IMG/VR virus record: IMGVR_UViG_3300037507_002920
Coordinates: 1 to 64,000 of that record
Reading direction: 5' to 3' (one strand)
Length of the DNA stretch: 64,000 nucleotides
DNA from: a virus
Positions 1,691-59,400 of this stretch are shown piece after piece. The notes below the pieces were generated by a model that worked only from the letters and a program-made list of their open reading frames with translations, did no database searches and was not told the origin of the DNA. Each line of letters begins with the position of its first letter. Position 1 is the stretch's first letter. Both the position numbers and the translations under genes were made by a program.

Positions 1691-2665
1691 TTAATAAGTC
1701 TGCGCGGTTTGATAAGTATTTCTTGTTGAAGTCGCACTAAATCCTGAGACTGTGTGTAATGTCGTCCAAGTTGTCCCGTTATTACTTCCAGCAATTGTCC
1801 ATGATTTTGGGTCTCTACTTTCTTCGTCATTAGCGGTGGCCCATCTGTATCCTGTGAACGATTTAGCGGAGGAAAATTGAAAAACGAAATTTGTAACATT
1901 ACCATTTGTAACAAAATTCAAATCTAGACCCTTTGTTGTTAAACTACCATCAACTAATTTTGATGGTTCTTCACCTGACGGATTTGAACCACTTGGGTTA
2001 GTAACAGTAACACCGGCCATACTTTGGTCAACACCACCTATTTGAAATACAAATTCAGACGCTTGAACACAATTCGCGTTAGGTGGTGTTGTTTTTGCTT
2101 CGGTTATTTGCCATCTATAATAAGTAAATGCCACTCTTGAAGGTGTTGGGGTTGGCGTTTTACTAGGTGTCACAGAACTAGTTGGTGTAACTGAAGGGGT
2201 TCGAGATGGTGTCACAGAACTAGTTGGTGTAACTGAAGGGGTTCGAGATGGTGTCACAGAACTAGTTGGTGTAACTGAAGGGGTTCGAGATGGTGTCACC
2301 GAAGGTGTAACAGAACTAGTTGGTGTTACAGAAGGTGTTAAGGATGGTGTAACAGACGGCGTAATTGATGTTGTTGGGGTTGGAGATGGTGCCGTTTCAA
2401 TTATTATTTTATAAAAATTTTCTTGAAAAATATAATCACCATTTTCTTGAAGTAAGAAATTTCCTGATTCATCCTCAACATAAAGGGTACATGTACTACC
2501 AAAAGCAGGAAAAAACAAAGTGTACGTTCCATAAAAATAAGGGGCTATATAGTCATATGGTAAAACTTGTGTACCCAAATTAATGGTCCCACCCGTGTCG
2601 GGATAATATGTTATTATTGCCGTTTGTCCATTATAATTTGTCGAAACTATTCTTAGTGTATCCAT
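1691..2665 (-). CDS. Tail fibre/adhesin with Pro/Thr/Ser repeats and a C-terminal F5/8 type C-like domain
   Basis: 324 residues in three parts. Residues 1-85 form a small beta domain paralogous to the start of the next gene upstream (shared TGGTINLG and YGTYxLxF motifs). Residues about 95-175 are Ser/Thr/Pro repeats of the [15 protein letters not shown] type, encoded by near-perfect 42-base repeats. The last 150 residues look like a discoidin (F5/8 type C) carbohydrate-binding domain, with [18 protein letters not shown] as the clearest signature. The architecture fits an adhesin that binds surface glycan through a flexible stalk. It follows the 733-residue paralogue by 9 bases, so the two are probably cotranscribed. 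Confidence 0.65.
2155..2360. repeat. 42-base tandem minisatellite in fibre gene
   Basis: About three near-identical 42-base units, containing AGAACTAGTTGGTGTAACTG and GGGGTTCGAGATGGTG, are followed by degenerate half-units. They are in frame and encode the Ser/Thr/Pro stalk of the 324-residue fibre. Copy-number change by slippage or recombination would shorten or lengthen the stalk without breaking the frame. Confidence 0.85.
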
Positions 2666-2674
2666 AAAATTAAA

Positions 2675-4876
2675 TTAAGGTCCAGGAGGTTGTGGATATG
2701 GTAATGACATACAATACGGAGTATCGCATTGATTCACGGTAAGAGTGTCTTTTATCATTACAGGTGTTTGACCAAAAGCTTGGTCACAATAAAAATAACA
2801 ATAACCATCGCTATGAATAAATCCATCATTTGATGTTAAATTATAATTAGACGGTATTCCAACTATTAATTGGGGAACAACACCAGAGGTATTATATGGG
2901 TCAAGACAATTACAAAAATAATATGATACATATTGAGGAGAAGGTGTTGGTGTTGGTGTTATCGACGGTGTTGGTGTTATTGTTCGAGTTGGGGTTATTG
3001 ACGGTGTTACACTTGGTGTTATCGACGGTGTTGGTGTTAGTGACGAAGTTATACTTGGTGTTATCGATGGTGTTGGTGTTATTGTTCGAGTTGGGGTTAT
3101 TGACGGTGTTACACTTGGTGTTATCGATGGTGTTGGTGTTATTGTTCGAGTTGGGGTTATTGACGGTGTTACACTTGGTGTTATCGATGGTGTTGGTGTT
3201 AGTGATGAAGTTATACTTGGTGTTATAGATGGTGTTGATGTTATTGTTCTTGTTGGTGTTAGTGACGGTGTTATAGATGGTGATGGTGTTATTGTTCGAG
3301 TTGGTGTTAGTGACGGTGTTACACTTGGTGTTATAGATGGTGTTGGTGTTATTGTTCGAGTTGGTGTTATTGTTCGAGTTGGTGTTATTGTTCGAGTCGG
3401 TGTTTTTGATGGTGTCGGGGTCGGAGTTAATGAACAAGTTGGAGTATCATCAGGATTTGGACACCAAAACGAATAAGGACTAACAAAGTTATTTGTTAAA
3501 TTGTCAAAACAGCTTATTACAGGACAAGGACATGGATGATTATATGGTAAAGTATTTGAACCTACATCGAGACCACTTGTAGTGACATAACAACACGAAT
3601 CATCACCAGGATTCGAACATAAATAATAACTAGAAAATCCTTCTTGAGTTACATGTGCCCAAATTTCACTATTGTGTATCGTGATGTCTTTTATATCTAC
3701 CCTAATCACGTACCAAGTATTAAATGATGGATTGTTAACCACATAAGTACCAAAAGAGCAATCACCTTTAACACCCGTACCTACAGTTATTTTAAAATTT
3801 GGGATAGGAAAATGTGGGTTACCTGATATTGTTTTTATCGCTAACATATATGAATATGATTTAGTGTAAAAACTATCTGTTACTGACCTATACATACTTC
3901 CCTGACCAGAAGAAAAGGTATTTGGTCTATAATTAAAAACCTCTCGAATATTACCATTTGGATAACCACAAACATCAACTAAATTGGATAACCAACCTTG
4001 AATATATTGATAAAATCCCGTCGTGTTGCCATCTATACTTTCTCTTATTGTTATCGGTATCGGATTTCCTGGTGTGTTAGCAAAAGGAATACCAACTGGA
4101 CCGTTACATATACAAGGTAATTGACTAGGTGTTGGTGTAGGTGTTGGTGTTTTTGATGGTGTTATAGTTTTTGATGGTGTGGGTGATGGAACGCTTGGAT
4201 TGTCTATTGGATTTATCGGTAAACCACCAATATCTGGTGGTTCTTCACCGAATCTAATGATATCTTTTGTTATATATTGTTTTGTCGAATCTTGAAAAGT
4301 TACATTTGTTGTTAATACATATACACCACTTAATTTACTGTAATCTGCCCACGCTTCTGAAGAGGCAAATTTGGCAAAAGATTCCGTTTCTCCTTTGTTA
4401 ATTTGCATAAATCCTTTTATAAAAAAGGAATCACCTCCCCCAATAACCAAAAGTTCATGAACAAAACTTATTTGTATATCATAACTTTCAGGGGAATTAA
4501 TTGATGTTCTATAAACTATATTTATTGAACCATCATTTATCCAACCATCAAAGTCTAAATCTTCTTGTGATGGTATTGTTTGAGTCGGAGTAATGGATGG
4601 TGTTATAGATGGTGTTCTTGTAATTGACGGTGTAATTGATGGTGTCCTTGTTAATGTTGGAGTAATGGATGGTGACGGAAATAATGCGTTTAACTCATAT
4701 GTTTTATTATATAATTCAAAATACAGTTCATATGTACCGTATGGATATTCTGAATTATATTCAAACGGCAATGTTTTTTCACCTAAATTAATGGTACCCC
4801 CTGTGTATGGTAAAAAAGTCACATTGGCAGTTTCACCACTTAAATTATTACTTGATATTCTTATTCCTGAAGGCAT
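2675..4876 (-). CDS. Large tail fibre/adhesin with multiple Thr/Pro/Ser repeat linkers
   Basis: 733 residues. An N-terminal beta domain of about 65 residues is paralogous to that of the 324-residue fibre. A short TPS linker follows, then a domain of about 130 residues (to about 225), a second linker, a Cys-containing globular domain (about 255-475) with [13 protein letters not shown] and repeated CP/CN motifs, a long linker of [14 protein letters not shown] repeats (about 490-640), and a compact Cys-rich C-terminal domain ending [12 protein letters not shown]. The linkers look like extended stalks, possibly glycosylated, between binding heads. The gene heads the pair of paralogous adhesins. 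Receptor-binding or surface-attachment function is inferred from architecture and position. Confidence 0.6.
2940..3425. repeat. Long Thr/Pro/Ser minisatellite with a perfect 60-base tandem repeat
   Basis: The linker DNA is built of GGTGTTATTGTTCGAGTTGG-type units. Positions 3061-3120 and 3121-3180 are identical over 60 bases, and a related third unit precedes them. Long open frames in the other frames across this stretch are by-products of the repeats. Perfect identity suggests recent duplication and possible length variation among phage progeny. Confidence 0.9.
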
Positions 4877-38878: not shown

Positions 38879-39250
38879 TTAATTTAATGAAATAAATCGT
38901 TCAAAAGATTTTTTCTTATTTCTTGGAAGAATAATTTCTAAAACACCATTTTCAACTTTTCCTGAAATATCCTTATCGGATACATCTTCTGGAATTAAAT
39001 AGGTTTTTCTAAAGGAACCAACAAAAGAATAACCTTTGTTGTTTGATTCTTCCTTTTTATAAGAGATGGAAATATGTCCATCTTTAACCGAAATAGTCAA
39101 ATCATTTTTTGTTAATCCCGGTACAGAAAGATATATTTTATAATCATCATCTTTTGTGACGATTTTAGTTTGACCATCCTTTATGTAGGATGGGGTTTCA
39201 AAAAATGTATCTAATACATCTTTGAACGAGTCTCTATAAAGTGTTAACAT
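38879..39250 (-). CDS. Small heat shock protein (Hsp20/alpha-crystallin)
   Basis: 123 residues. The alpha-crystallin domain runs from about 28 to 112: DDYKIYLSVPGLTKNDLTISVKDG, then the GSFRKTYLIPEDV strand and the GKVENGVLEIILPR end. It holds unfolded proteins in a refoldable state without ATP. The N-terminal arm is short. It is transcribed away from the Clp ATPase gene, and the two probably act together, Hsp20 holding clients and Clp disaggregating or degrading them. Its promoter region contains a 22-base palindrome (39265-39286). Confidence 0.92.
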   Translation of the reverse strand: MLTLYRDSFKDVLDTFFETPSYIKDGQTKIVTKDDDYKIYLSVPGLTKNDLTISVKDGHISISYKKEESNNKGYSFVGSFRKTYLIPEDVSDKDISGKVENGVLEIILPRNKKKSFERFISLN

Positions 39251-39264
39251 AGTATATTTTTTTT

Positions 39265-39321
39265 ATTTGATAATTTATCATCAAATTATACGCCATTTAT
39301 TAAAAATTGACAAATTGTCAT
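39265..39321. promoter_or_regulatory. Two inverted repeats between hsp20 and clp
   Basis: ATTTGATAATTTATCATCAAAT (arms ATTTGAT/ATCAAAT with nested GATAA/TTATC) lies at 39265-39286, and TGACA-AAT-TGTCA at about 39308-39320. TTGTCATGT recurs near 39346. Symmetric sites between two divergent chaperone genes look like repressor operators. The binding protein is unknown. Confidence 0.4.
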
Positions 39322-39355
39322 GTTTTTTTTAAATTTAAAGTTATTTTGTCATGTA

Positions 39356-39387
39356 TTTGTTTTTTCTTATGAAATTTCGTATATTTG
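39356..39387 (+). promoter_or_regulatory. Bacteroidota-type promoter of clp
   Basis: TTTG at 39356-39359, a 20-base spacer and a perfect TATATTTG at 39380-39387 match the Bacteroidota primary promoter. The start codon follows 13 bases later at 39401, giving a very short leader. Confidence 0.7.
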
Positions 39388-39400
39388 TAAAAAAAAGTAT

Positions 39401-41419
39401 ATGTCAGTTGATTTTTTCGAAGAAGGGAATAACTCAAATCCTAAAAAAACAAAAAAGGGTTCAACAACTCCAATCCTTGATAATTTTTCAAGAGATTTAA
39501 ATAAATTAGCAGAAGAGGGTAAAATTGACCCAGTAGTTGGTAGAGAAAAAGAGGTTAAAAGAATTGCACAAATTTTGGCTCGAAAGAAAAAAAATAACGC
39601 GATAATTGTTGGTGATGCTGGTGTTGGTAAATCCGCATTGATTGAGAAATTAGCACTACAAATAGTTAATGGTGATTGTCCAACTAATCTAATAGATAAA
39701 AAATTATTATCTTTAGATTTAACTTCATTGGTTGCCGGTACAAAATACAGAGGACAATTTGAAGAAAGAATTAAAGCAATTTTAAATGAATTACAAAACG
39801 AACCGAATGTAATATTGTTTATTGATGAAATGCACACAATCGTTGGCGCGGGTAATGCAAGTGGTTCGATGGATGTCGCTAATATATTAAAACCAGCGTT
39901 GGCTAGAGGAGAAATTCAGTGTATTGGTGCAACAACATTTGATGAATACAAAAAGAATATTGAAAAAGACGGAGCGTTAGTCAGAAGATTTCAAAAAATA
40001 ATCTTAAAAGAACCTTCACCAGACGAAACTGTTCAAATTTTAAAAAATTTAAGAAATTCATATCAAGATTTTCATAAAGTTTATTACAGTGATGAAGTTT
40101 TATCAACCATTGTCACGTTATCTTCAAAATACATAACAGATAGACAATTTCCTGATAAAGCAATTGATGTTTTAGATGAATTGGGTTCAGATAAAAAAAT
40201 CAACACTAAAATACCCGAATCAATTGAAAAATTGAAAAAAGAATCGGATGAATTAAGACTCAAAAAAATACAAGTTGTAAAAAATCAACAATATGAACAG
40301 GCGGCTAAATTAAGAGACGAAGAAAAGAAAATTTTAACAAAACTACAAGAAGAAAAAAATAAATGGTTAGATACACAAAAAGATAGTAAAATACCAATAT
40401 CTGTAGATGATGTTTACGAAATGGTTTCTCAAATTGTTGGTGTACCAATTTCCAAAGTAGATGTTGTTGAAACCGATAATCTTTTAAATTTAGAAGAAAA
40501 ATTAAAATCAAAAGTTATTGGACAAGACGAAGCGATTTCTATTATTTCAAAATCAATAAGAAGAAACAGGGTTGGGATTAAAGACACAAATAAACCAATT
40601 GGTTCGTTTATCTTTTTAGGTTCAACAGGTGTTGGTAAAACTTATTTAGCAAAATCAATTGCGGAAATATTATTTAACGACCCGAATAAAGTTATTCGAG
40701 TTGATATGAGTGAATATATGGAAAAACATAATGTTGCTAAATTGATAGGAGCACCACCGGGCTATGTTGGATATGATGAGGGTGGACAATTAACAGAAAA
40801 AATTAAAAATAACCCATTTTCTGTTGTTCTTTTTGACGAAATAGAAAAGGCACACAAAGATGTTTTTAATATTTTGTTACAAATCTTGGATGAAGGTCAC
40901 CTTACAGATTCTTTTGGAAGAAAAGTTAGTTTTTCAAATGCCATAATAATTATGACATCTAACATTGGGGCAAAAAAAGTATCTGATTTTGGGAAGGGCG
41001 TTGGTTTTGAAACTTCTTTTAGTGATAATCAGAACACAGAGATTAAAAAATCAATAGTTCAAAAATCATTAAAACAATATTTTAATCCTGAATTTTTAAA
41101 TAGGGTTGATGATATAATTAGTTTTAATCCTCTTGTAAAAGAAAGTATTGATAAAATTATTAACCTTGAATTAGAAAAACTCAAAAAGAGATTAGAACTA
41201 AAAAAATATAAAATTTCATTTGACGCTTCTATTACTAATAGAATATCTGAATTAAATACACAAGAAGAATTTGGTGCAAGACCAGTAAAAAGAATCATAC
41301 AAAACTTGTGTGAAGATTTTTTAAGTGAAATGATATTGAGAGGTGAAATTTTAGAAAATCAAAACATTTTATTGAAATTTAAAGATGGTGAAATAAAAAT
41401 AACAAAAAAGAGAGTATAA
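39401..41419 (+). CDS. Clp ATPase, ClpC-like, without N-domain
   Basis: 672 residues from ATG 39401 (earlier in-frame codons lie in the promoter). There are two AAA+ modules: Walker A GDAGVGKS (71-78) with LFIDEMHT, and GSTGVGKT with LFDEIEKAHKDVFN. A short UVR-like helical linker (QQYEQAAKLRDEEKKI) lies between them, as in ClpC. The segment VSDFGKGVGFETS after TSNIGAKK is in the place of the ClpP-docking loop of Bacteroidota ClpC. The Clp_N repeat domain is missing: only about 40 residues precede the first ATPase. It may commandeer host ClpP or act as an unfoldase. Confidence 0.85.
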   Translation: MSVDFFEEGNNSNPKKTKKGSTTPILDNFSRDLNKLAEEGKIDPVVGREKEVKRIAQILARKKKNNAIIVGDAGVGKSALIEKLALQIVNGDCPTNLIDKKLLSLDLTSLVAGTKYRGQFEERIKAILNELQNEPNVILFIDEMHTIVGAGNASGSMDVANILKPALARGEIQCIGATTFDEYKKNIEKDGALVRRFQKIILKEPSPDETVQILKNLRNSYQDFHKVYYSDEVLSTIVTLSSKYITDRQFPDKAIDVLDELGSDKKINTKIPESIEKLKKESDELRLKKIQVVKNQQYEQAAKLRDEEKKILTKLQEEKNKWLDTQKDSKIPISVDDVYEMVSQIVGVPISKVDVVETDNLLNLEEKLKSKVIGQDEAISIISKSIRRNRVGIKDTNKPIGSFIFLGSTGVGKTYLAKSIAEILFNDPNKVIRVDMSEYMEKHNVAKLIGAPPGYVGYDEGGQLTEKIKNNPFSVVLFDEIEKAHKDVFNILLQILDEGHLTDSFGRKVSFSNAIIIMTSNIGAKKVSDFGKGVGFETSFSDNQNTEIKKSIVQKSLKQYFNPEFLNRVDDIISFNPLVKESIDKIINLELEKLKKRLELKKYKISFDASITNRISELNTQEEFGARPVKRIIQNLCEDFLSEMILRGEILENQNILLKFKDGEIKITKKRV

Positions 41420-41595: not shown

Positions 41596-41943
41596 ATGTA
41601 TCAAGATAAACCAAAAGACACTATTATAAAAAAATTGGTAATTAATGAGTCATACAAAGACTTTCCCGAATTTTATCGAAAAAATAAAGAAGAGATATAT
41701 AAAAACATTGTTCTGTCATTTAAAAGTATAAATAGAAAAGACAAACAAAACGTTGTTTTATATTTACACGCAAAAATTAATGGGCTACAATGGGAAACAA
41801 ATTTAAAATTTAATAAAAAAGAATGTTTTGTGTTGGTTAGAGACATATTACCCTTTTTTGAGGAAAAAGAAGAATATGAATATTGTGGTGTAATTGTAAA
41901 TTTATATAATAAATTAAATTCAAATCTTCAATTAGAAGAATGA
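41596..41943 (+). CDS. Small protein of unknown function
   Basis: 115 residues from ATG 41596. Upstream in-frame codons cross the terminator and promoter and are rejected. Helical start (YKDFPEFYRKNKEEIYKNIVLSF), then a strand pair (NVVLYLHAKINGLQWETNLKF) and an acidic patch (FFEEKEEYEYCGVIV). A TATATTTA element 17 bases upstream gives it its own promoter. It converges with the lectin/dockerin gene (16-base overlap). The family is not recognised. Confidence 0.5.
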   Translation: MYQDKPKDTIIKKLVINESYKDFPEFYRKNKEEIYKNIVLSFKSINRKDKQNVVLYLHAKINGLQWETNLKFNKKECFVLVRDILPFFEEKEEYEYCGVIVNLYNKLNSNLQLEE

Positions 41944-43676
41944 GATAAATCACAATCTCCTTTAATTATAAATTTTATGTTTAAAATAACATTATTTACA
42001 CCAAAATTAATTATAAAAACTTGATTTGATGGTATTGAATTAAAATTATTGAGATTAATTAAATTAAAATCATTTTCATTATACCATAAAGTTTCATTGA
42101 AATACATTAACCCTGAAATTCTTGCCGCCAATAAATAAGAATCGACAATTGTTATTTTTCCATCGTTATTAATATCTCCGGCTTTCATTTTTTTTCCATT
42201 ATTTAAAACTAATCCAATAGGTAATTGATTTGGTGTGTTTTCATTTTTTGATTCATTAAACAATAAATTGAAATCATTATTCGTTAATGAGTCAAAAAAT
42301 GAAGGAACTATTTTATAGGTTGAATTGTGTTTTGTTGGGTTTAAAACATATGAACCGTCAGCACTAACATTTATAGTTTGTAATAGTGTTTCCGTATTAT
42401 TCTCAACAAGATAAAATTTTAATTGTGGTCTGTTTAAAACATTATTGGGTATTGATATTGTTCCGCTTATTGTTTCAGAAATTGAAATGGTGGCAATTAC
42501 TTCAGTTCTTGTTGAACTAACACAACCCGTTGAAATATTTCTTGATTGAGCATAATATTTTGTTGTTTGTGAAATAAATGGTGTTGTAAATGTCGTATTC
42601 CCAACTAATATAGGGTTACCTCCCGTTAAATTTGAATACCAATCAACAGTTTGACCAACACCGACTATTGCGGATATGGTAACCGTACCACTACCCGTTC
42701 TACTACCATTTACACCGATTGGTTTTGATGGCTCTTGCAATGATGTACATGTAATTTGATGGGTCACAAAACCCGTATAAAAATCCGTAAAATTTTGTTC
42801 CGAAGGGTCTGACCATGTTCCAAATTCAACAACATATCCACTTATTGAACTAGGAAAAGAACTCGCCGGTGGACCGAAATCGTTCCAACAATTCCCACCA
42901 CCCCATTTTGTAACAGCATAATCTTCTCCACTTCCCCAATTATTTGGTTCACCACCACACCAGTTATTATATTTACCAGCAACATTTCCACCTGAATTTG
43001 ATGTCTTTATTATTGTACCATTTTCAGGACCAGCATCTATTACCCACACCCCTTCTTGTGATACGTCATTTAAAGCAAATAAGATGTTATTTCCGGGTAC
43101 ATTGGATTGTATAAAATTTTGTTCATCTTGTGATGTTATTGTTAAAAGATATCCTGTTTGTCCTTTAAATGTTTGTTGTGTCGATAATGTTTTAATATTG
43201 TTATATATCGAATGACTTGTCCCCGTATTTCCAGATGGCCAAGACATTGGTCTATAAAAGTGTCCATTTGTTGGTAAATAATAATACCCTGTTGGATTAA
43301 TTGTGGCACTTACTGCAATGTAAACGTTACCAGGTGATGAACCGGTATTTATTTTTAATGAACTTAATGTTGTGTTGATATTTGATTGGAGCCCAGTAAA
43401 ACTAATTCTCGTAAAATTTAACCAAGAAGAATACCCCGTACTTAAAGATACTCCCGTTGTTGATGTTAATGATAAAGTGGTACCTATTGGTGGATTTACT
43501 AAACCAATAGTGACAAGTAATGTTGAGGTTGAATTAAAGTTGGAAATTGAAAATCCACCAGCATTTTGATTTGATGTGTTTTGTGAAAAAGTTGTTGCAG
43601 ATGGTGATGTTATGTTTTGTGAAAAAACAAGGATTGGTGATAAAATTAAAATACATAAAAATATAATTTTTTTCAT
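41928..43676 (-). CDS. Secreted C-type lectin plus dockerin-like protein
   Basis: 582 residues. A signal peptide (MKKIIFLCILILSPILVFSQ) is followed by a beta domain. A C-type lectin domain spans about 120-290, with the signature NNWCGGEPNNWGSGEDYAVTK and GGNCWNDF (EPN is the sugar-specific calcium triplet). An Ig-like/Ser-Thr-rich part and a CnaB-like segment follow (390-470), then a dockerin-like EF-hand (KAGDINNDGKITIVDSYLLAARISG, about 498-522). It ends with NIKFIIKGDCD, without a T9SS sorting domain. The last 190 residues align with the middle of the 635-residue cohesin protein. Expected location is the periplasm or cell surface, possibly held by a cohesin-dockerin contact. Confidence 0.65.
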   Translation of the reverse strand: MKKIIFLCILILSPILVFSQNITSPSATTFSQNTSNQNAGGFSISNFNSTSTLLVTIGLVNPPIGTTLSLTSTTGVSLSTGYSSWLNFTRISFTGLQSNINTTLSSLKINTGSSPGNVYIAVSATINPTGYYYLPTNGHFYRPMSWPSGNTGTSHSIYNNIKTLSTQQTFKGQTGYLLTITSQDEQNFIQSNVPGNNILFALNDVSQEGVWVIDAGPENGTIIKTSNSGGNVAGKYNNWCGGEPNNWGSGEDYAVTKWGGGNCWNDFGPPASSFPSSISGYVVEFGTWSDPSEQNFTDFYTGFVTHQITCTSLQEPSKPIGVNGSRTGSGTVTISAIVGVGQTVDWYSNLTGGNPILVGNTTFTTPFISQTTKYYAQSRNISTGCVSSTRTEVIATISISETISGTISIPNNVLNRPQLKFYLVENNTETLLQTINVSADGSYVLNPTKHNSTYKIVPSFFDSLTNNDFNLLFNESKNENTPNQLPIGLVLNNGKKMKAGDINNDGKITIVDSYLLAARISGLMYFNETLWYNENDFNLINLNNFNSIPSNQVFIINFGVNNVILNIKFIIKGDCDLSHSSN

Positions 43677-45088
43677 AAATTAACTTTACTACCTATCAGA
43701 AAAAAAGACAAAATAGGAAAGTTTGGTTTTGTACTCATATTTGCCTTATAATTCATGTTTAGTTTAAATCTTTTAGATATTTGATAATCTAACCCACTAC
43801 CAATAAAACCGCTTACGTATCTGTCTGTAATTGTTATTTTATCTTTTGTTGAATAAACCAAAGGAGTTGACATTACATATATTTCGGGTGACATCATAAA
43901 CCTTTTGTTGATTTGAAATGGTCTTGTGTAGAAAAAGGTGGCGGATGGTGAATAATATCCCGTCTTTTCTTTAGTAATGATAGAAGCTGCGGCACTTAAA
44001 TTTATACCAGTCACACCAAATTTTCCCGCATTTAATATACCACTGTACCCCAAAAACAATAAATAATTACCATATGTATAAACACCCGTCAAATTTAAAT
44101 TATGTATAAATTTTAAATTTTGACTTTTATCAAAATGTATTTTACTGTATTTTCCTGAAATTGCAAATTGTTTTAAGTTTAACCAAACCATGCTTGTTAC
44201 ACCATAATTTGATAAACCAGTCATTGAAGACCTACTTGTTCCAATATTTATTATTCCCGTAAACTTACCATCTAAATTTTGTGCGGACGTTAAATCTGAA
44301 GAAACAATAATTGGGTTACTATTTGAACCACCACCTCTGTTACTACTTCTCTTTCCCGAACCACCATCGTTTGATGAATTATTATTTTTTTCAGTTTGAC
44401 TATCTAAATTTATTGTTGTTGTCGCAACAACTTCTTCTCCGTTCGTTTCAGAATTATTTGAATTATTTACAGTCGATTTAGTCGATGGATTTCTTGTTTG
44501 TGTTGAATTATTTGGTTTTCCATTCGTTCCACCACCATTTGAAGTTCCATTTCCTTGACCATTATTTGTTCCTCCAGATGACCCACCATTTGATTGATTT
44601 GGTGGGGGTCCTCCATTTCCTTGATTTGAAGAACCATCTCCATTATTCCCTGTAGTATTATTACTTCCATTGTTTTGTGTATTATTACTTTCTTCGTCAT
44701 TCTCTGTTGAATTACCACCAGATTGGTTAGACGACATTATTGAACCAACTACCGATTGTACAACACCTCCAATTATTTGGCTAGTTATTTGATTTTGGGT
44801 TACTTGAGATTGTTGTTGTGAACATGGACTTATTTGTCTGTATTCACCATAAACTTGATTTATCCAATTTGAAAATGTTCCATTTAATAAATCGTTACTA
44901 TCAAAATAACCTATTTTATTTAAAAAAATTATTGTTGTTTTACCACCTTGTAACGGGACACTAAAAATTGTAACTTCTTTTGTACATGGGTCAATAAAAG
45001 TGTATGTTGTTATTTGTGCTGTTGATATTTTAGAAAATATTATAAATAATAATATTAAAGATACTTTTATAATATTTTTTAATATCAT
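43673..45088 (-). CDS. Outer-membrane-like protein with long Asn/Gly/Ser linker
   Basis: 471 residues from ATG 45088. A hydrophobic signal segment ends STAQ. A domain of about 80 residues (YTFIDPCTKEVTIFSVP, EYRQISPC) is followed by an extreme low-complexity Asn/Gly/Ser/Thr stretch (about 120-260). The C-terminal 200 residues show alternating beta strands (MVWLNLKQFAISGKYSKI, NLTGVYTYGNYLLFLGYSG, FFLIGSKVNL) like a small outer-membrane barrel. It overlaps the lectin gene by 4 bases. An outer membrane anchor or pore for the secreted proteins is inferred. Confidence 0.5.
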   Translation of the reverse strand: MILKNIIKVSLILLFIIFSKISTAQITTYTFIDPCTKEVTIFSVPLQGGKTTIIFLNKIGYFDSNDLLNGTFSNWINQVYGEYRQISPCSQQQSQVTQNQITSQIIGGVVQSVVGSIMSSNQSGGNSTENDEESNNTQNNGSNNTTGNNGDGSSNQGNGGPPPNQSNGGSSGGTNNGQGNGTSNGGGTNGKPNNSTQTRNPSTKSTVNNSNNSETNGEEVVATTTINLDSQTEKNNNSSNDGGSGKRSSNRGGGSNSNPIIVSSDLTSAQNLDGKFTGIINIGTSRSSMTGLSNYGVTSMVWLNLKQFAISGKYSKIHFDKSQNLKFIHNLNLTGVYTYGNYLLFLGYSGILNAGKFGVTGINLSAAASIITKEKTGYYSPSATFFYTRPFQINKRFMMSPEIYVMSTPLVYSTKDKITITDRYVSGFIGSGLDYQISKRFKLNMNYKANMSTKPNFPILSFFLIGSKVNL

Positions 45089-45129
45089 CACTCATTTTCT
45101 TTAAAAGAAGATATTAGAATCTGTCTTTG

Positions 45130-45894
45130 TTAATTAGGGAAAACACCCTTTTTTATCATTCTCAATAGTATTCTACAACATGCAATGTCTAATGCTTTTT
45201 TAGTGCTTATACCAATAGTTGATTGGTTAAATTTAACATCACTTAAATTATCGTCGTTTATTAAACTTAATTCTCTTACCGTTTTAGCTTCACCCAAACC
45301 ACTTGCAGCGATTATTTGGCCTGTTTCTGCATCGGTAAATCTAACCTGTAAACCTAATCTTGTAACCACAGTATTTTTTACGCCATCAGACAAGTTAACA
45401 GTCTCATCTTCACTTATTGAAAAATCATAAACTTCAATACTAACAAAATAGTGTGCTAAACGAATTTTACCCCTACCATCTAAAGTATCTGCACTTATTC
45501 CAGCTTGAGACGCTTGGAATTGTTTAACCATTCTGTTTTTTATTTCGGTTTTATCTTCGGTAAAAGTAAATCTATTTAGATTTTCCAAGTACTCCAATGT
45601 GATATTTGCAACACCCAAACCAACTTTTTTTTCTTTTAATTCTGGGTATTGTTCATAAACTTCATCATTTATACCTATTTTCAAAATTTGAATAGGAATT
45701 TGTGGTCCCTCATAATCCATTAATGAATCAATATTTACACTTGTTTCAAATGACGCTTTGTATTGCTCTGTTTGTGTTTTACCAATAACTTGTGCAGATG
45801 CAACATCAAACATTAATATCGTCATTATGATAACCCAAAATAGAAATACTAAAATTGGTAGTAAATATTTTTTCATTTTGATTATGTTATTCAT
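45130..45894 (-). CDS. CsgG-like secretion/assembly protein
   Basis: 254 residues. The signal segment MKKYLLPILVFLFWVIIMTILMFDVASAQ lacks a lipobox Cys. The domain VGLGVANITLEYLE, IKNRMVKQFQAS, YFVSIEVYDFSI, VVTRLGLQVRFTDAETGQIIAASGLGEAKT and ISTKKALDIACCRIL has the order of the CsgG family, which forms outer-membrane pores for curli-type amyloid or periplasmic regulators. It overlaps the upstream gene by 4 bases. With the barrel and cohesin proteins it may form a phage-encoded export or surface-assembly system. Confidence 0.6.
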   Translation of the reverse strand: MNNIIKMKKYLLPILVFLFWVIIMTILMFDVASAQVIGKTQTEQYKASFETSVNIDSLMDYEGPQIPIQILKIGINDEVYEQYPELKEKKVGLGVANITLEYLENLNRFTFTEDKTEIKNRMVKQFQASQAGISADTLDGRGKIRLAHYFVSIEVYDFSISEDETVNLSDGVKNTVVTRLGLQVRFTDAETGQIIAASGLGEAKTVRELSLINDDNLSDVKFNQSTIGISTKKALDIACCRILLRMIKKGVFPN

Positions 45895-46463
45895 TCTTCG
45901 TCTTTTATTTTACCACATTTTAAACACTCTAAATCACCGTCATTGTCTGAATCACCCCAAACGTGTTCACATTGTCTGTGTGTGAAATATTCATCAATGA
46001 TACCGTCATTATCGAAATCTAAACCATCCATAATACCATCACCATCCTCATCGATTTCTACACCAACTTTTTGTTCATTATTTGATTTCGTTTCAGTACT
46101 TTCTAAATCAAGAATGGGTTTAGATGGTGTTGATGGTTTTGGTGAATCTGGTATATCCGATGTATTTGATAACGAAGTACCATCCTCTTCATCCATTTTT
46201 TGAACTAACATTTTATCCTTATCAGTATCACTGAACCAATAGTCAATGATTTTACCGTAGGAACCAATGAAAGCACCAAGAAGTAAAAGAAGAAGTTCTT
46301 TCCATTCTCCACTTATGGCACTTTGTTCAAATATGGCCAAAAATATTCCACCCATAATTAACATGAACCCACCAAGAACTATGGCGGTTATAAACCACCT
46401 TCTTTTCATCATTGAATTTAGAAGTTCTCTAAATCCAGTGTTTTGAGAATTATCATTTACCAT
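45891..46463 (-). CDS. Membrane protein with calcium-type Asp repeats and zinc-ribbon-like end
   Basis: 190 residues. Two membrane segments (WFITAIVLGGFMLIMGGIFLA, then LLLLLLGAFIGSYGKIIDYW) are followed by a Ser/Pro linker, a type 3-thrombospondin-like motif (DEDGDGIMDGLDFDNDGIID) and a final C-x-H...C-x-x-C group (CEHVWGDSDNDGDLECLKCG). The membrane part could be holin-like. The soluble part could bind calcium and zinc. It overlaps both neighbours by a few bases. Topology and function are inferred. Confidence 0.5.
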   Translation of the reverse strand: MVNDNSQNTGFRELLNSMMKRRWFITAIVLGGFMLIMGGIFLAIFEQSAISGEWKELLLLLLGAFIGSYGKIIDYWFSDTDKDKMLVQKMDEEDGTSLSNTSDIPDSPKPSTPSKPILDLESTETKSNNEQKVGVEIDEDGDGIMDGLDFDNDGIIDEYFTHRQCEHVWGDSDNDGDLECLKCGKIKDEE

Positions 46464-46804
46464 GCTGGTGGGGTTTCTTTAAATTCATCACCTTCTTTTT
46501 TCTTCGGAGCAGGTGCGGGTTTATTGTTATTTTCTGGTTGCTTTTCAATAACTCTTTCTTTTATGATAGTTGTTCCACCACCCGAGTTATTTTGTTGTTG
46601 AGTGTTATTATTTTCTAAATTAAGATTAATAACTGGTGCGGGTGCAACCTGTTCTGTTTTAGTTTCTTCTTTATCGTCCCCTCCACCACCAAATAGAGTT
46701 GTGGATACCCACACACCACCACCTGTGACAATGGTTGCTAATGTACCTACGATGGTTTTTTTCAAACCACCCCAAGAGCCGTCGTTTTCTGTTTCTTCAC
46801 TCAT
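46457..46804 (-). CDS. Small single-pass membrane protein
   Basis: 115 residues. One hydrophobic segment (TIVGTLATIVTGGGVWVSTTLFGG, about 17-40) is followed by a low-complexity Asn/Gln/Pro/Lys tail ending KETPPAW. Size and layout fit an accessory membrane or spanin/holin-type protein of the cassette. It follows the cohesin protein gene by 4 bases and overlaps the next gene by 7 bases. The family is not recognised. Confidence 0.45.
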   Translation of the reverse strand: MSEETENDGSWGGLKKTIVGTLATIVTGGGVWVSTTLFGGGGDDKEETKTEQVAPAPVINLNLENNNTQQQNNSGGGTTIIKERVIEKQPENNNKPAPAPKKKEGDEFKETPPAW

Positions 46805-46808
46805 GATT

Positions 46809-48716
46809 TTATACTTTTATAAATTGTTTAGTTAATTGTTTATTATAATTATTCAGAATTAGAAAATAATTTCCATTAGAAGCGTATGTCATATCAATTT
46901 GTTTATATGCGACCGTTTCCATTGGATTTGTTATAACTTGTCCTACGTTTTGAATCAACTTACCTCTGATATCATAAATAGATGCGTCCATAAACATATT
47001 TTGATTTGGAAATTTAACTTCTAATTCAAACCAACCTGTTGTTGGGTTTGGTCTTATCGATGCTGTTATTTCTTCAACAACTTGATGGGTCTGTGGAATT
47101 GACCTATAACTTAAAACTGCGATTTGGTTTTGTAACTCAATATTTAAGTGGTCACCATTTTCGTCCGAGGCATCCATCAATTCTCTAATTTGAATATTTG
47201 TTACGATATCCTCACCACCAATTGGTGAAAATTTAAGTTTAAAAGGTGTCGATTGACCAATTAAACCGTCTCTTTGTTGATTATTCATTCCGCCAAACCT
47301 AACAGTACCTGATAGTTCATCGTGTGTCACATATTGTAACCATGGGCCACCATTAAAATTGGACACGATTTCTTCAAATTTAACTTTTGTTCTGTCATAC
47401 TTCATTTCAAATTGTAGTCCATAGTTATTATCCCCATTTGTGTTTATGTTAAATGGAACATATAACGATGGATTACCAACAGAATATGTGTTTGGTATGT
47501 TAATATCTAATTTACCTTTATAAATTGCTCTGGCAACTAAATTACCATTACTATCCCACACTCTTGAAGAGAATGTTCTATCAACATCACCTTGTATAAA
47601 GTATTTAATATTCACAACCAAATTTTCGTTACCAACACTATCCGTGATAAAGTTTGTTGTGTTTAAAAAATTAGGCCAAATAGACCATTGGTTTTGACCT
47701 AAAACTAAGTTATCATAATCAGATGCTTTAAACACTCTAATCATGTTCGTAGTATCTATTTTTCTTAAACCACTAACATTTGCGTATATCAAATACGGGT
47801 CACCACCATCTAAATTACCATTTCCATTTAAATCAGCAATCAAATAAGATAAACCATTTTTCAAATAAAATCTTGAATACGTTTGATTAACGTCTGTTCT
47901 TGTAAATTCATCATATGTTTTTACGGCATCTGATATCGTTACCGCATAATCTCTGAAAGTTTCCATACTATCAGATGGGAATCTTAAAAGTAATTTATAT
48001 CTAGTGTTTCTATCAACATTATTTAAACTATAGTTACCTGAAGTATCACATAAAGAAGAAGACACAAACTCACCAGTGTTTAATTTAGTACATATAACCA
48101 TTGGTCTTCTACCATCTAATTTCATAGTCGGTGGAAGTTCAACATTACCACTTATAACCAAGTTACCACCCAAATCTAACTTCATACTCTTGTAAGTCAA
48201 ATTCGCTACGTTATCACCAATACTTGTACCGTCTTTTTTAAACAATCTAACCCAGTTCACGTGTACACTATCTTCCACGAAATTGGATTGAACATTGTTA
48301 ATTAAAAATTTATTGTGAATGATGTATATTGCTCCTGAAATTTGAGAACCACTTGATAATACTAAAAAGTTTCTAGCGACGGTCCAATTTGTGTCATTAA
48401 CATACCCATATAAACCCGTTGCTGGACTATATGAACCATACTTAAAGTTATCATATTCGTTATATGATATTGCCGGTGTCATGGTATTAACACTATTATC
48501 CACAGTTGTTGAAACGTGTGTAAATAAATCCTTCTTAAATTGGAAATCGATTTGAAACGACCTTACATCTTTTGTTGGGTCGGGGATGTATTGAAATATT
48601 ACATCTAACGTATCGTTTCTTCTTATTGTAGATAATTGTTGAAAATTACCTACGCTCTGTGAATAACCTACATAGGTTATCATCATTAACACAAATGTTA
48701 AAATTAGTTTTTTCAT
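46809..48716 (-). CDS. Secreted cohesin/dockerin-type protein with T9SS sorting domain
   Basis: 635 residues. The signal peptide MKKLILTFVLMMITYVGYSQ is followed by a beta domain, a CnaB-like segment (about 190-260) and a dockerin-like EF-hand (LIADLNGNGNLDGGDPYLIYANVSG, about 290-315). A cohesin-like domain lies at about 400-535 (LYVPFNINTNGDNNYGLQFEMKYDRTKVKFEEI). The C-terminus (IRPNPTTGWFELEV, ASIYDIRGKLI, GNYFLILNN, KQFIKV) is a type A T9SS sorting domain, used by Bacteroidota to send proteins across the outer membrane. A phage gene with this tag implies display on the infected host cell. Confidence 0.75.
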   Translation of the reverse strand: MKKLILTFVLMMITYVGYSQSVGNFQQLSTIRRNDTLDVIFQYIPDPTKDVRSFQIDFQFKKDLFTHVSTTVDNSVNTMTPAISYNEYDNFKYGSYSPATGLYGYVNDTNWTVARNFLVLSSGSQISGAIYIIHNKFLINNVQSNFVEDSVHVNWVRLFKKDGTSIGDNVANLTYKSMKLDLGGNLVISGNVELPPTMKLDGRRPMVICTKLNTGEFVSSSLCDTSGNYSLNNVDRNTRYKLLLRFPSDSMETFRDYAVTISDAVKTYDEFTRTDVNQTYSRFYLKNGLSYLIADLNGNGNLDGGDPYLIYANVSGLRKIDTTNMIRVFKASDYDNLVLGQNQWSIWPNFLNTTNFITDSVGNENLVVNIKYFIQGDVDRTFSSRVWDSNGNLVARAIYKGKLDINIPNTYSVGNPSLYVPFNINTNGDNNYGLQFEMKYDRTKVKFEEIVSNFNGGPWLQYVTHDELSGTVRFGGMNNQQRDGLIGQSTPFKLKFSPIGGEDIVTNIQIRELMDASDENGDHLNIELQNQIAVLSYRSIPQTHQVVEEITASIRPNPTTGWFELEVKFPNQNMFMDASIYDIRGKLIQNVGQVITNPMETVAYKQIDMTYASNGNYFLILNNYNKQLTKQFIKV

Positions 48717-49207
48717 AGTAATAAATTATTTAATAGTGTTTGAGTTGTTTTTTTTATTGCTGAACTGGCAGATTGTTGATTAAATTTACCACCTTCATCA
48801 ATAATGATTGTTGAAGTTGATATTTCTGTCGATTTCCCTTCCGAAAATTCTTGTTTTATTTTTTTATCTCCTTTGTATAGAATCCCTTTCATTCTAATTA
48901 CCGTCGTTGTTTTATCTTGATGGAAAACACTAATACCGGAGTTAACCTTAATAATATCAAAAAATATTAGTTCAATTTTTATTTTATATTCTGACGTTGA
49001 TTTGTCTCCAACCAAATAAAATTTATCCTGTTCGTTTATAATTTCTTCAGCAATATTTTTAACTCCAAATGCCAAATTTTTATTTTCAGTAAATGGACCT
49101 ATTTTTATGTTGTTGATTACCGTATCAACAACAAGACTTTGGGCGTTAAGATTATTTAACCCCAATAAAAGAAAAAATAAAACGGTAAGTATATATGGTT
49201 TTTTCAT
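48713..49207 (-). CDS. Secreted CsgG/LpoB-related small protein
   Basis: 164 residues. The signal peptide MKKPYILTVLFFLLLGLNNLNAQ is followed by a periplasmic domain: FGVKNIAEEIINE, YKIKIELIFFDIIKV, TTTVIRMKGILYKG, and a final SASSAIKKTTQTLLNNLL helix. The strand-helix order resembles a short CsgG/LpoB-like or DUF-type periplasmic domain, related in style to the 254-residue protein. It overlaps the cohesin gene start by 4 bases. It probably works with that protein at the envelope. Confidence 0.45.
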   Translation of the reverse strand: MKKPYILTVLFFLLLGLNNLNAQSLVVDTVINNIKIGPFTENKNLAFGVKNIAEEIINEQDKFYLVGDKSTSEYKIKIELIFFDIIKVNSGISVFHQDKTTTVIRMKGILYKGDKKIKQEFSEGKSTEISTSTIIIDEGGKFNQQSASSAIKKTTQTLLNNLLL

Positions 49208-49209
49208 TT

Positions 49210-49464
49210 TTATTCAGATACATTGTCTTCAAATTTCCTTTTATGTGAAAACTTATCCAAAGTATCGGCACCCATTCCTATCGCGGTTATAATCATTACT
49301 GCGTTTACCAAATCCTCAGATGGTTTAATATCACCATGAGAAAATGAATTAGCTAACATAGTACCACATAGAAAAGTTGAACCTAAAAATGCGATTACGG
49401 GTTTTATAGAAGTAGAACCTCTCTCGTCTTTAAATAAGTCTACAATCCAATTTTTGAAAGTCAT
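49210..49464 (-). CDS. Holin-like small membrane protein
   Basis: 84 residues. Two membrane segments (IKPVIAFLGSTFLCGTMLANSF and LVNAVMIITAIGMGADTLDKF) are separated by a short polar loop, with a charged C-terminus (SHKRKFEDN). This is the layout of phage class II holins, which open the inner membrane at lysis. No endolysin gene is adjacent, so a general membrane protein remains possible. A TATTTATT motif (minus, 49507-49514) lies 42 bases upstream. It heads the envelope cassette down to 41928. Confidence 0.5.
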   Translation of the reverse strand: MTFKNWIVDLFKDERGSTSIKPVIAFLGSTFLCGTMLANSFSHGDIKPSEDLVNAVMIITAIGMGADTLDKFSHKRKFEDNVSE

Positions 49465-49566
49465 AGTTATAATTTATGTTTGGTTTATTTATCATGTTTG
49501 GTTAACAATAAATATCCCGGCAATTTTATTTTTCATATATATTTAAAAAATTATATATGACATTTT

Positions 49567-51817: not shown

Positions 51818-52235
51818 GGGGATGAAAGGAATCGACACACGTGTAAATGTTAAATGGGCATGCGGTCAAACATCATCTATGACCATAATCAATGATGGTA
51901 CAAATTAAGCGGCAACGTTTATAACAACATGGAAATTGCGGGTATCCTCGCTTCTTCCAAGGTAGCAGTAGCCTAGGCGAATCTATCAATGGGTCGGGAG
52001 ACAAATAACCTAGAAACAGAAGTCTTTAAGGTGTGATACAACCTAAAGTGTCAAGGGTCTCGTTCAGAGTACTACCTGTAAATCCACGAAAGTGGTAAAA
52101 GTGAATTCGACACAGTTATTGGTAACAATGTCAAAATAGGAACCATTTATTTGTCAGTTGTGAACTAATTGAATAAGCATGTAGTCCATTTATGATTTCT
52201 CGGGGTGGACGGCGGTTCAATTCCGCCCATCTCCA
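51818..52235 (+). ncRNA. ssrA: Transfer-messenger RNA (tmRNA)
   Basis: 418 bases. The ends fold as tRNA-Ala: acceptor GGGGATG (51818) pairs with CATCTCC (52228-52234) with a G3-U70 wobble, the alanine identity element, and discriminator A. GGAATCGACA matches the conserved 5' D-like region, and TAAGCATGTAG, GGACGGCGGTTCAATTCCGCC the 3' region and T arm of bacterial tmRNAs. Pseudoknot 1 is visible: GGTCA/TGACC crossing CATCAT/ATGATG (51864-51897). A tag frame follows 13 bases later. CCA is not encoded. It rescues stalled ribosomes and tags the unfinished protein. Confidence 0.93.
51911..51976 (+). CDS. tmRNA tag-peptide reading frame (predicted)
   Basis: Starting at GGC 51911, 13 bases after pseudoknot 1, the frame encodes 21 residues and stops at TAG 51974. 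It starts Gly-Asn, as Bacteroidota tags start with Gly, and ends Lys-Val-Ala-Val-Ala, a hydrophobic/Ala end typical of ClpXP degrons. It is longer than the 9-11 residues of most host tags. The resume codon is placed by spacing, not proven. Confidence 0.6.
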   Translation, partial: GNVYNNMEIAGILASSKVAVA

Positions 52236-52246
52236 CTGGCTAACTT

Positions 52247-58422: not shown

Positions 58423-59400
58423 TTAAATATCTATTTTTTTTTGTAATTCAATATCATTTTTAACCATTCTTTTTACAAGATTTTCAAAGTTAATTTTTGG
58501 TTCCCACCCCAATTTTTCTTTTGCTTTACTGTAGTCACCTTTTAAAACATCAACCTCCGCGGGTCTCATGTACCTATTATCAATTCCAACATATTTTGAC
58601 CAATTATTAATACCAATTTCTTGAAATGCACAATCTAAAAAATCTTCTATTGTTTTAACTATTCCAGTGGCAATAACAAAGTCATCGGGTGATTCTTGTT
58701 GTAACATTAACCACATAGCCTCAACGTAATCAGGTGCGTATCCCCAATCTCTAGCCGCTTTTAAATTGCCTAAATATATTTTATCAATAATACCTAAATG
58801 TATTTTTGCTACTCCGTCAGATATTTTTCTTGTTACAAATTCATAACCTCTTCTTTCTGATTCATGATTGAATAAAATCCCACTAACAGCAAACATATCG
58901 TGACTTTCTCTGTAATTTTTGGTTAACCAATGCCCATATAATTTAGAAACACCATAGGGTGAACGAGGATAAAATTGTGTTTTTTCATTTGCAGGATTTT
59001 CAACCATCTTACCAAACATTTCAGAGGAAGACGCTTGATAAAATTTTATATTCTTATTATTAGATTCTCTGATAGTTTCTAACATTCTTAAAACCCCTAA
59101 ACCTGTAACGTTAGATGTTAATTCTGGTGTATTCCAACTATCACCAACAAATGACTGTGATGCTAAATTATAAACCTCGTCAGGTTCACATTCTTTTACT
59201 ACTCTAAATAAAGAATTTTGGTCAGTCAAATCCGCATTATACATTTTAACTTTACCGATTAAATGTTTTGCATTTGTTAAAGTTTCATTTGTTTTATTTT
59301 TTATGACACCAAAAACCTCATAGTCTTTTTTTAATAAAAAATCAGCTAAATGTGAACCATCCATACCATTCAACCCTGTTATTAATGCTTTTTTTTTCAT
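58423..59400 (-). CDS. gmd: GDP-mannose 4,6-dehydratase
   Basis: 325 residues. Short-chain dehydrogenase fold with the NAD(P) motif GLNGMDGSH (9-17), the catalytic region SSSEMFG and YGVSKLYGHW (Tyr-x3-Lys), and the Gmd-specific FNHESERRG. The enzyme converts GDP-mannose to GDP-4-keto-6-deoxymannose, the branch point to GDP-fucose, rhamnose and perosamine. No epimerase gene is adjacent in the window, so the final sugar may depend on host enzymes. It follows the methyltransferase-glycosyltransferase fusion by 5 bases and probably supplies it with donor. Confidence 0.92.
   Translation of the reverse strand: MKKKALITGLNGMDGSHLADFLLKKDYEVFGVIKNKTNETLTNAKHLIGKVKMYNADLTDQNSLFRVVKECEPDEVYNLASQSFVGDSWNTPELTSNVTGLGVLRMLETIRESNNKNIKFYQASSSEMFGKMVENPANEKTQFYPRSPYGVSKLYGHWLTKNYRESHDMFAVSGILFNHESERRGYEFVTRKISDGVAKIHLGIIDKIYLGNLKAARDWGYAPDYVEAMWLMLQQESPDDFVIATGIVKTIEDFLDCAFQEIGINNWSKYVGIDNRYMRPAEVDVLKGDYSKAKEKLGWEPKINFENLVKRMVKNDIELQKKIDI

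Follow-up and report, generated by a model that had tools for sequence, protein, structure and literature searches.

Organization of the cassette

We analysed a 64,000-nucleotide stretch of viral DNA (the window; positions 1 to 64,000 of the IMG/VR record IMGVR_UViG_3300037507_002920), in which eight minus-strand open reading frames (ORFs), P8 to P1, run from 49464 down to 41928 (Table 1). Several of them overlap by 4-7 nt, so that the set appears operon-like. The parent record comprises 107,216 bases and carries T4-type genes, among them those for a gp23 capsid protein (PF07068) and a terminase; its match to sigma region 2 is weak. A preliminary description of the locus had listed eight adjacent minus-strand genes, at least four signal peptides of the Bacteroidota type, a sorting domain of the type IX secretion system (T9SS) and a cohesin-like domain on one protein, a C-type lectin beside a dockerin-like motif, one CsgG-like and one barrel-like product, and had proposed that the phage displays an adhesive complex on infected cells.

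All eight genes were recovered as described, and five of their products have a hydrophobic N-terminus with an x-[S/A]-Q end: P1 (VFSQ), P2 (STAQ), P3 (ASAQ), P6 (GYSQ) and P7 (LNAQ). Signal peptides were called here by a simple sequence rule, not by SignalP. The same pattern recurs in 58/66 relatives of P1, 78/84 of P2, 93/101 of P3 and 71/94 of P6, and in just four relatives of P4 and four of P5; these counts, like the locus counts below, include near-identical loci. Profiles for cohesin, dockerin, lectin and the T9SS C-terminal domain (CTD) gave no significant match to any ORF of the genome besides P1 and P6, structural genes included. PHROGs returned no informative match for the cassette proteins, with a weak one for P4.

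Table 1. Features of the cassette, in window positions. Loci: number of the 161 loci seeded with P3 relatives that hold the gene.
Feature	Position	Strand	Description	Basis	Loci
Motif	49507..49516	-	late-promoter-like motif GATATTTATT before P8, the first cassette gene; putative promoter	TATTTAT enrichment	
P8	49210..49464	-	84 aa, small membrane protein; two hydrophobic stretches by eye	ORF; one 19-aa stretch above Kyte-Doolittle 1.5	57 (P8-like)
P7	48713..49207	-	164 aa, secreted, probable second CsgG-superfamily member	profile matches	145
P6	46809..48716	-	635 aa, scaffoldin-like: signal peptide, cohesin-like, dockerin-like, cohesin, T9SS CTD	AlphaFold2, Foldseek, PF18962/TIGR04183, domain map	
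P6 dockerin-like module	47574..48095	-	aa 208-381; Ca-loop-like DLNGNGNLDGGD	common to P1; weak ScaH dockerin match, E 0.07	
P6 second cohesin	47121..47507	-	aa 404-532	cohesin profile, 156 bits; PF00963 matches in homologues	
P6 sorting domain	46815..47072	-	aa 549-634; T9SS type A	PF18962, TIGR04183; profile matches to C-termini of PDB 5jvk, 8glk, 7pzj	
P5	46457..46804	-	115 aa, no signal peptide, weak membrane stretch, proline-rich tail ending in Trp	alignment	155
P4	45891..46463	-	190 aa, two transmembrane segments (about 27 and 57); near-invariant motif WKELLLLLLGAFIGSYGKIIDYWFSD	alignment	110
P3	45130..45894	-	254 aa, secreted CsgG-fold protein, most conserved cassette member	AlphaFold2, Foldseek, bacterial relative	
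P2	43673..45091	-	472 aa: signal peptide, small domain, low-complexity linker, barrel-like C-terminal region (by eye)	sequence, alignment	151
P1	41928..43676	-	582 aa: signal peptide, C-type lectin (aa 132-298), Ig_7 (aa 316-397), dockerin-like C-terminus (aa 422-578)	PF19081, lectin profiles, domain map	

The scaffoldin-like protein P6

P6 begins with the signal peptide MKKLILTFVLMMITYVGYSQ and ends in a sorting domain that scores above the curated cutoffs of both PF18962 (31.2 bits, cutoff 27) and TIGR04183 (25.1 bits, cutoff 23). This is the sole T9SS domain in the whole 107 kb record, and it is present in 17/23 P6 homologues. A Pfam scan of P6 itself detected no cohesin; PF00963 was detected in 8/23 homologues, and the homologue in the cultured Flavobacterium phage immuto reaches 36.7 bits (cutoff 24.1) and carries a sorting domain in the same protein. 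The AlphaFold2 (AF2) model of P6, calculated from 36 sequences, has a predicted local distance difference test (pLDDT) value of 86.0. Its best PDB match in a Foldseek search is the ScaA cohesin dyad 3l8q (E = 1.3e-11), and comparison with single cohesins yields target-normalised TM-scores of up to 0.79, with an r.m.s.d. of 3.0 (3ul4). Other Ig-like proteins are also listed, as expected for β-sandwiches, and cohesins dominate the top of the list. As modelled, P6 has a cohesin fold. Sorting domain and cohesin thus reside on one protein, as had been described, and the outcome named beforehand as adverse, structural models lacking both folds, is not what we observe: the cohesin fold is seen in the model, and the CTD appears as profile matches and a confident all-β region.

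Bacteria build cellulose-digesting machines with cohesin and dockerin clip domains. The cellulosomal scaffoldins ScaA and CipA (PDB codes 3l8q, 3kcp, 4fl4), which provide the best structural matches, likewise combine repeated cohesins and a dockerin in one chain and work with a separate dockerin-bearing functional protein. The phage version differs in being T9SS-tagged, in having a lectin in place of enzymes and in its divergent dockerin-like module; binding is here a prediction. The top match of P6 in a viral library is to a phage protein of 636 aa whose name refers to the T9SS sorting domain; the next two matches, of 243 and 363 aa, have the lengths of the two halves into which P6 is divided in immuto.

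The lectin protein P1 and its dockerin-like module

The presence of a C-type lectin in P1 was borne out by profile searches. P1 itself scores 17.3 bits against Pfam Lectin_C, below the cutoff of 22.6; the domain is matched in 26/28 P1 homologues, and the P1 lectin profile detects solved C-type lectins with an E-value of 5.8e-12. The adjoining Ig_7 domain lies above its cutoff (PF19081, 54.4 bits). No T9SS sorting domain was detected in P1.

The dockerin-like motif that had been noted beside the lectin is indeed present as the C-terminal module of P1, although its Pfam match is weak (E = 0.017, below cutoff; 4/28 homologues match) and the domain map places the same module in P6. It has one clear Ca-loop-like F-hand (DINNDGKITIVD in P1, the motif of Table 1 in P6), the other repeat being degenerate, so we call it dockerin-like with reserve. 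A layout with one cohesin protein and one dockerin protein was dropped: P1 and P6 both carry the dockerin-like module, and P6 the cohesins.

Domain profiles run over the P3-seeded loci revealed how these parts are distributed. Lectin genes are arranged as lectin-dockerin (80) or lectin-lectin-dockerin (25). P6-type proteins are fused in about 100 loci, as dockerin-cohesin-CTD (50) or cohesin-dockerin-cohesin-CTD (49), and split in others, where a cohesin-dockerin protein (26) accompanies a cohesin-CTD protein (27), immuto among them. In about 20 loci, a cohesin protein occurs with lectin-dockerin-cohesin or dockerin-cohesin and without a sorting domain. Parts that are fused in some genomes and separate in others give a ‘Rosetta stone’ hint that the parts of P6 meet, and hence that cohesin and dockerin-like module may bind.

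P3 and P7, a probable pair of CsgG-superfamily proteins

The AF2 model of P3 is of modest confidence (pLDDT 70.4), and its first Foldseek match is the pre-pore form of CsgG (4uv2; E = 3.1e-6, probability 1.00), followed by PelC and GNA1162, which have the same fold. P3 itself has no PF03783 match in the Pfam scan. A scan of bacterial genome contigs with short peptide patterns, which may miss distant relatives, returned a single P3 relative, at 34% identity, in a metagenome-assembled genome of Ignavibacteriales (locus L167); this relative passes the Pfam CsgG cutoff (PF03783, 28.6 vs 20.8). A profile search of 396 genomes of the Ignavibacteriales’ phylum gave three matches, of which two are weak. 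In L167, the gene that follows the P3 relative scores 50 bits against the P7 profile and 28 bits against the P3 profile, and the P7 profile matches P3 itself at 22 bits. The best interpretation is therefore that P3 and P7 both belong to the CsgG superfamily, with P7 as a divergent second relative beside P3. In a direct hhalign comparison, in which the sequences were few and similar, P3 and P7 aligned with 4.5% probability; the relation appeared with wider profiles. The one CsgG-like product expected at the locus is thus P3 by its predicted fold, and P7 adds a second.

The cleavage site of P3 is of the Q type and lacks the Cys, and hence P3 has neither lipobox nor lipid anchor, whereas the L167 relative has LFNAC, the lipoprotein form, and E. 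coli CsgG is also lipid-anchored. In the alignment, the region of the first CsgG transmembrane hairpin is shorter and charged in P3. PDB sequence searches with the P2, P3 and P7 profiles gave just chance-level or low-complexity matches.

The L167 locus resembles the cassette in that a P3 relative is followed by a P7-like gene, and differs in its lipoprotein form and in its neighbours, with no cohesin or lectin gene seen. Besides the tandem pair of CsgG-like genes, positions 9989-17425 of L167 encode a transglutaminase-like protein, a 428-aa barrel-like protein and a CHASE2 adenylate cyclase. An adenylate cyclase has also been reported with pelagiphage curli modules (PMC9599517).

P2, P4, P5 and P8

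The barrel-like product corresponds to P2, for which a C-terminal barrel is plausible from the sequence and for which Pfam and PDB profile searches gave no informative family or structure match. P4, P5 and P8 are small proteins with membrane stretches (Table 1). The C-terminal residue of P5 is Trp in 92/92 distinct homologues, a striking invariant within an otherwise low-complexity tail.

Conservation and spread

The cassette recurs in other phages. P3 relatives are encoded on 529 candidate stretches in IMG/VR, and the 161 P3-seeded loci used for the counts in Table 1 include that of the cultured phage immuto. Gene order is re-shuffled among these loci and the gene set stays linked, which argues against hitch-hiking. 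The cassette is also found on contigs of jumbo size, up to 321 kb. On 17/18 large cassette-bearing contigs there is exactly one T9SS-domain match (16 over cutoff), which lies inside the cassette wherever its position was compared with that of P3, except for a weak match outside it on contig G516. P3 is present on 5/7 large contigs chosen by capsid relatedness. Among the GenBank phages searched, relatives of P3 or P6 occur in immuto isolates only.

Mean column identity is 67% for P3, as against 37% for P1, 37% for P2 and 41% for P6. Such a difference from P3, the putative periplasmic core, is expected if P1, P2 and P6 face a varied outside.

Late-type motif upstream of the cassette

The heptamer TATTTAT occurs 15 times in the 60 nt upstream of genes, against 1.8 expected, mostly before structural genes (scaffold, protease, portal, fibre-like). 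One copy lies at -50 relative to P8, and in 38/50 immuto-type loci the heptamer is found upstream of the dockerin gene. Sharing of this motif with structural genes suggests that the cassette is expressed late.

Relation to known systems

Pelagiphage and Melnitz curli modules, for which aggregation, exclusion and lysis control have all been proposed (PMC7029224, PMC9599517, PMC9004378), resemble the cassette as large myophage operons that pair a CsgG-family outer-membrane protein with surface-directed parts. Their CsgG proteins are, however, 37-40% identical to E. coli CsgG, as compared with 15% for P3, so that P3 appears to represent a separate lineage, and they carry CsgF and, as reported, CsgA/B, where the present cassette has cohesin, dockerin, lectin and a T9SS tag. 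Curli, or type VIII secretion, was rejected for the cassette itself: P1-P8 gave no curlin, CsgE or CsgF Pfam matches at E up to 1, and P3 is without the CsgG lipid anchor. Cryophage, in turn, offers Bacteroidota phage proteins with T9SS type A sorting domains that have been proposed to alter the host surface, but their cargo consists of an endoglucanase, a GH39 protein and a PA14 protein, and PMC7468147 describes no cassette with cohesin, dockerin or CsgG.

Phage immuto (MW353175, genes 13-19), whose host is Flavobacterium sp. LMO8, encodes a lectin, a dockerin protein, a cohesin-CTD protein and homologues of P5, P3, P2 and P7. In immuto P6 is split into two genes, P7 has moved downstream, P4 is absent and the cassette stands beside replication genes; its members are annotated just as lectin, cohesin and hypothetical proteins. 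T9SS-tagged phage cargo and phage curli modules are thus already published, and of the present combination we found no description: our literature search, which left most subscription papers outside its reach, returned no paper that joins phage, cohesin domain and T9SS.

Proposed function

Good support for the molecular core, a phage-encoded adhesive complex that is exported by T9SS and combines cohesin, dockerin and lectin parts, comes from domain detection, the AF2 models and Foldseek matches, recurrence in 161 loci, the split and fused forms and the absence of these domains from other ORFs. To this extent the preliminary description is borne out in part: the adhesive complex that it put forward stands, and any purpose assigned to it is conjectural. 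Beyond the core, we infer a late-acting complex at the cell surface that would be held together by cohesin-dockerin binding and served by the CsgG pair. In our preferred reading, the cassette acts late in infection and equips the surface of the infected Bacteroidota cell with a modular adhesive, which tethers the cell or its remains; taken as a whole, we hold this reading tentatively, at somewhat under an even chance.

In this adhesive, P6 would be exported by the host T9SS and then either stay attached to the outer surface or be shed from it. P1, which has the dockerin-like C-terminus but no sorting domain, would be recruited by a P6 cohesin. Contacts between cohesin and dockerin-like modules of different P6 copies could chain them, with P1 as the lectin-bearing end. 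An outer-membrane complex of P3, P7 and P2 may assemble or anchor the adhesive parts or help to export them, with P4, P5 and P8 as its possible inner-membrane partners. The most likely purpose would be to bring progeny into contact with new hosts, by making the infected cell or its remains stick to particles or to cells nearby. A bolder version, a ‘scaffoldome’ of self-chained P6 surface fibres capped by P1 and presented through T9SS and a non-curli CsgG complex, would be an adhesive organelle with its parts on no virion; we regard it as possible but on the unlikely side.

Several observations weigh against the tethering adhesive. The dockerin-like module is weak by Pfam and has a single canonical Ca loop; P3 is without a lipobox and without an obvious first CsgG transmembrane hairpin, so that a pore is only putative; the barrel of P2 is read from its sequence; and the cohesin proteins without a CTD in about 20 loci indicate that T9SS export is not universal. 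In Melnitz, which has a different CsgG module, clumping was sought and none was observed (PMC9004378).

A serious rival, which we nevertheless judge unlikely, is superinfection exclusion or receptor masking, in which the displayed complex would cover or occupy glycan receptors and block adsorption of other phages, or of progeny, to the cell or its debris. It draws on the same evidence for display, the P6 sorting domain and the modelled cohesin fold; moreover, lectins bind glycans, the surface parts are the most variable, and exclusion has been put forward for the T9SS-tagged cargo of Cryophage (PMC7468147). A secreted EndA/NUC1-type nuclease, encoded elsewhere in this genome, could also destroy incoming DNA; in 25 loci, immuto included, a relative of it is found no more than 10 kb from P3. 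Exclusion would, however, be most useful early, whereas the motif upstream of the cassette is of the late type, and an elaborate multi-domain scaffold exceeds the needs of masking. Aggregation, tethering or retention would agree with late expression no less well than exclusion does, and because expression looks late we favour aggregation or tethering as the probable purpose.

Lysis or outer-membrane disruption is disfavoured as improbable. P4 and P8 would then be holin-like, and the CsgG pair with P2 would open or weaken the outer membrane, as has been proposed for the Melnitz CsgG (PMC9004378); the small membrane proteins P4, P5 and P8, the CsgG-fold proteins and the late motif would all agree with this. 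A GH19/peptidoglycan-binding endolysin and a PF05105 holin nevertheless map to 85.5 and 97.8 kb, well away from the cassette, which weakens a role in lysis, and the lectin, the cohesins and the T9SS tag would have no obvious part in it. It is less probable still that the secreted proteins become accessory adhesins on progeny particles: the late motif and the help that C-type lectin domains could give to adsorption speak for such virion decoration, but virions assemble in the cytoplasm, from which signal peptides and the T9SS tag remove the proteins that bear them, and neither cohesin nor dockerin was detected in any structural protein. Nutrient or polysaccharide capture, in which a complex at the surface, SusD-like or cellulosome-like, would feed the infected cell, is very hard to credit, since despite the cellulosome-like architecture and the sugar binding of lectins the cassette contains no glycoside hydrolase or SusC/D-like protein, the lectin being its only identifiable ligand-binding domain.

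If the tethering adhesive is correct, viruses borrow the host T9SS to rebuild the surface of infected cells with clip-together parts, and do so in many T4-like and jumbo-size Bacteroidota phages. It would also constitute a second CsgG-bearing surface module of large myophages, distant from pelagiphage curli, which would imply that such remodelling matters repeatedly. As immuto was isolated on cultured Flavobacterium, the purpose of phage-encoded surface modules becomes testable.

Other features of the genome

The EndA/NUC1-type endonuclease gene (PF01223, 80 bits; record 82044-82649, minus strand; L003:18044-18649) encodes a signal peptide, and its product is possibly periplasmic or secreted, acting on incoming or released DNA. 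An extended series of genes of the glycosyltransferase, sugar-nucleotide and NeuB/synthase-like kinds, assigned by eye, reaches from window position 58423 to record position 78826 and suggests phage-directed glycan synthesis, to which the lectin could relate. Another secreted protein of 263 aa, with a signal peptide ending in FGQ and a barrel-like C-terminus, is encoded at record 93736-94527.

Compared with the IMG/VR contig 3300042914_002952 (L006), the sequence is 100% identical from 50.6 kb down to about 45.0 kb and about 84% identical past that point, through P2, P1 and the ClpB region. The drop near 45.0 kb may mark a recombination breakpoint or a chimeric assembly join. An allele swap of P1-P2 alone between near-identical phages was considered and set aside: the divergence starts within P2 and continues through the ClpB region. 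In that region (window 38879-41419), an Hsp20-like phage gene adjoins a divergently transcribed ClpB/ClpC-type ATPase gene (AAA_2, ClpB_D2-small, UVR).

On the other side of the cassette, a phage transfer-messenger RNA with the predicted tag GNVYNNMEIAGILASSKVAVA lies at window 51818-52236, near four tRNA genes. Fibre-like proteins with long SITPSVTPS-type repeats are encoded at window 1691-4876.

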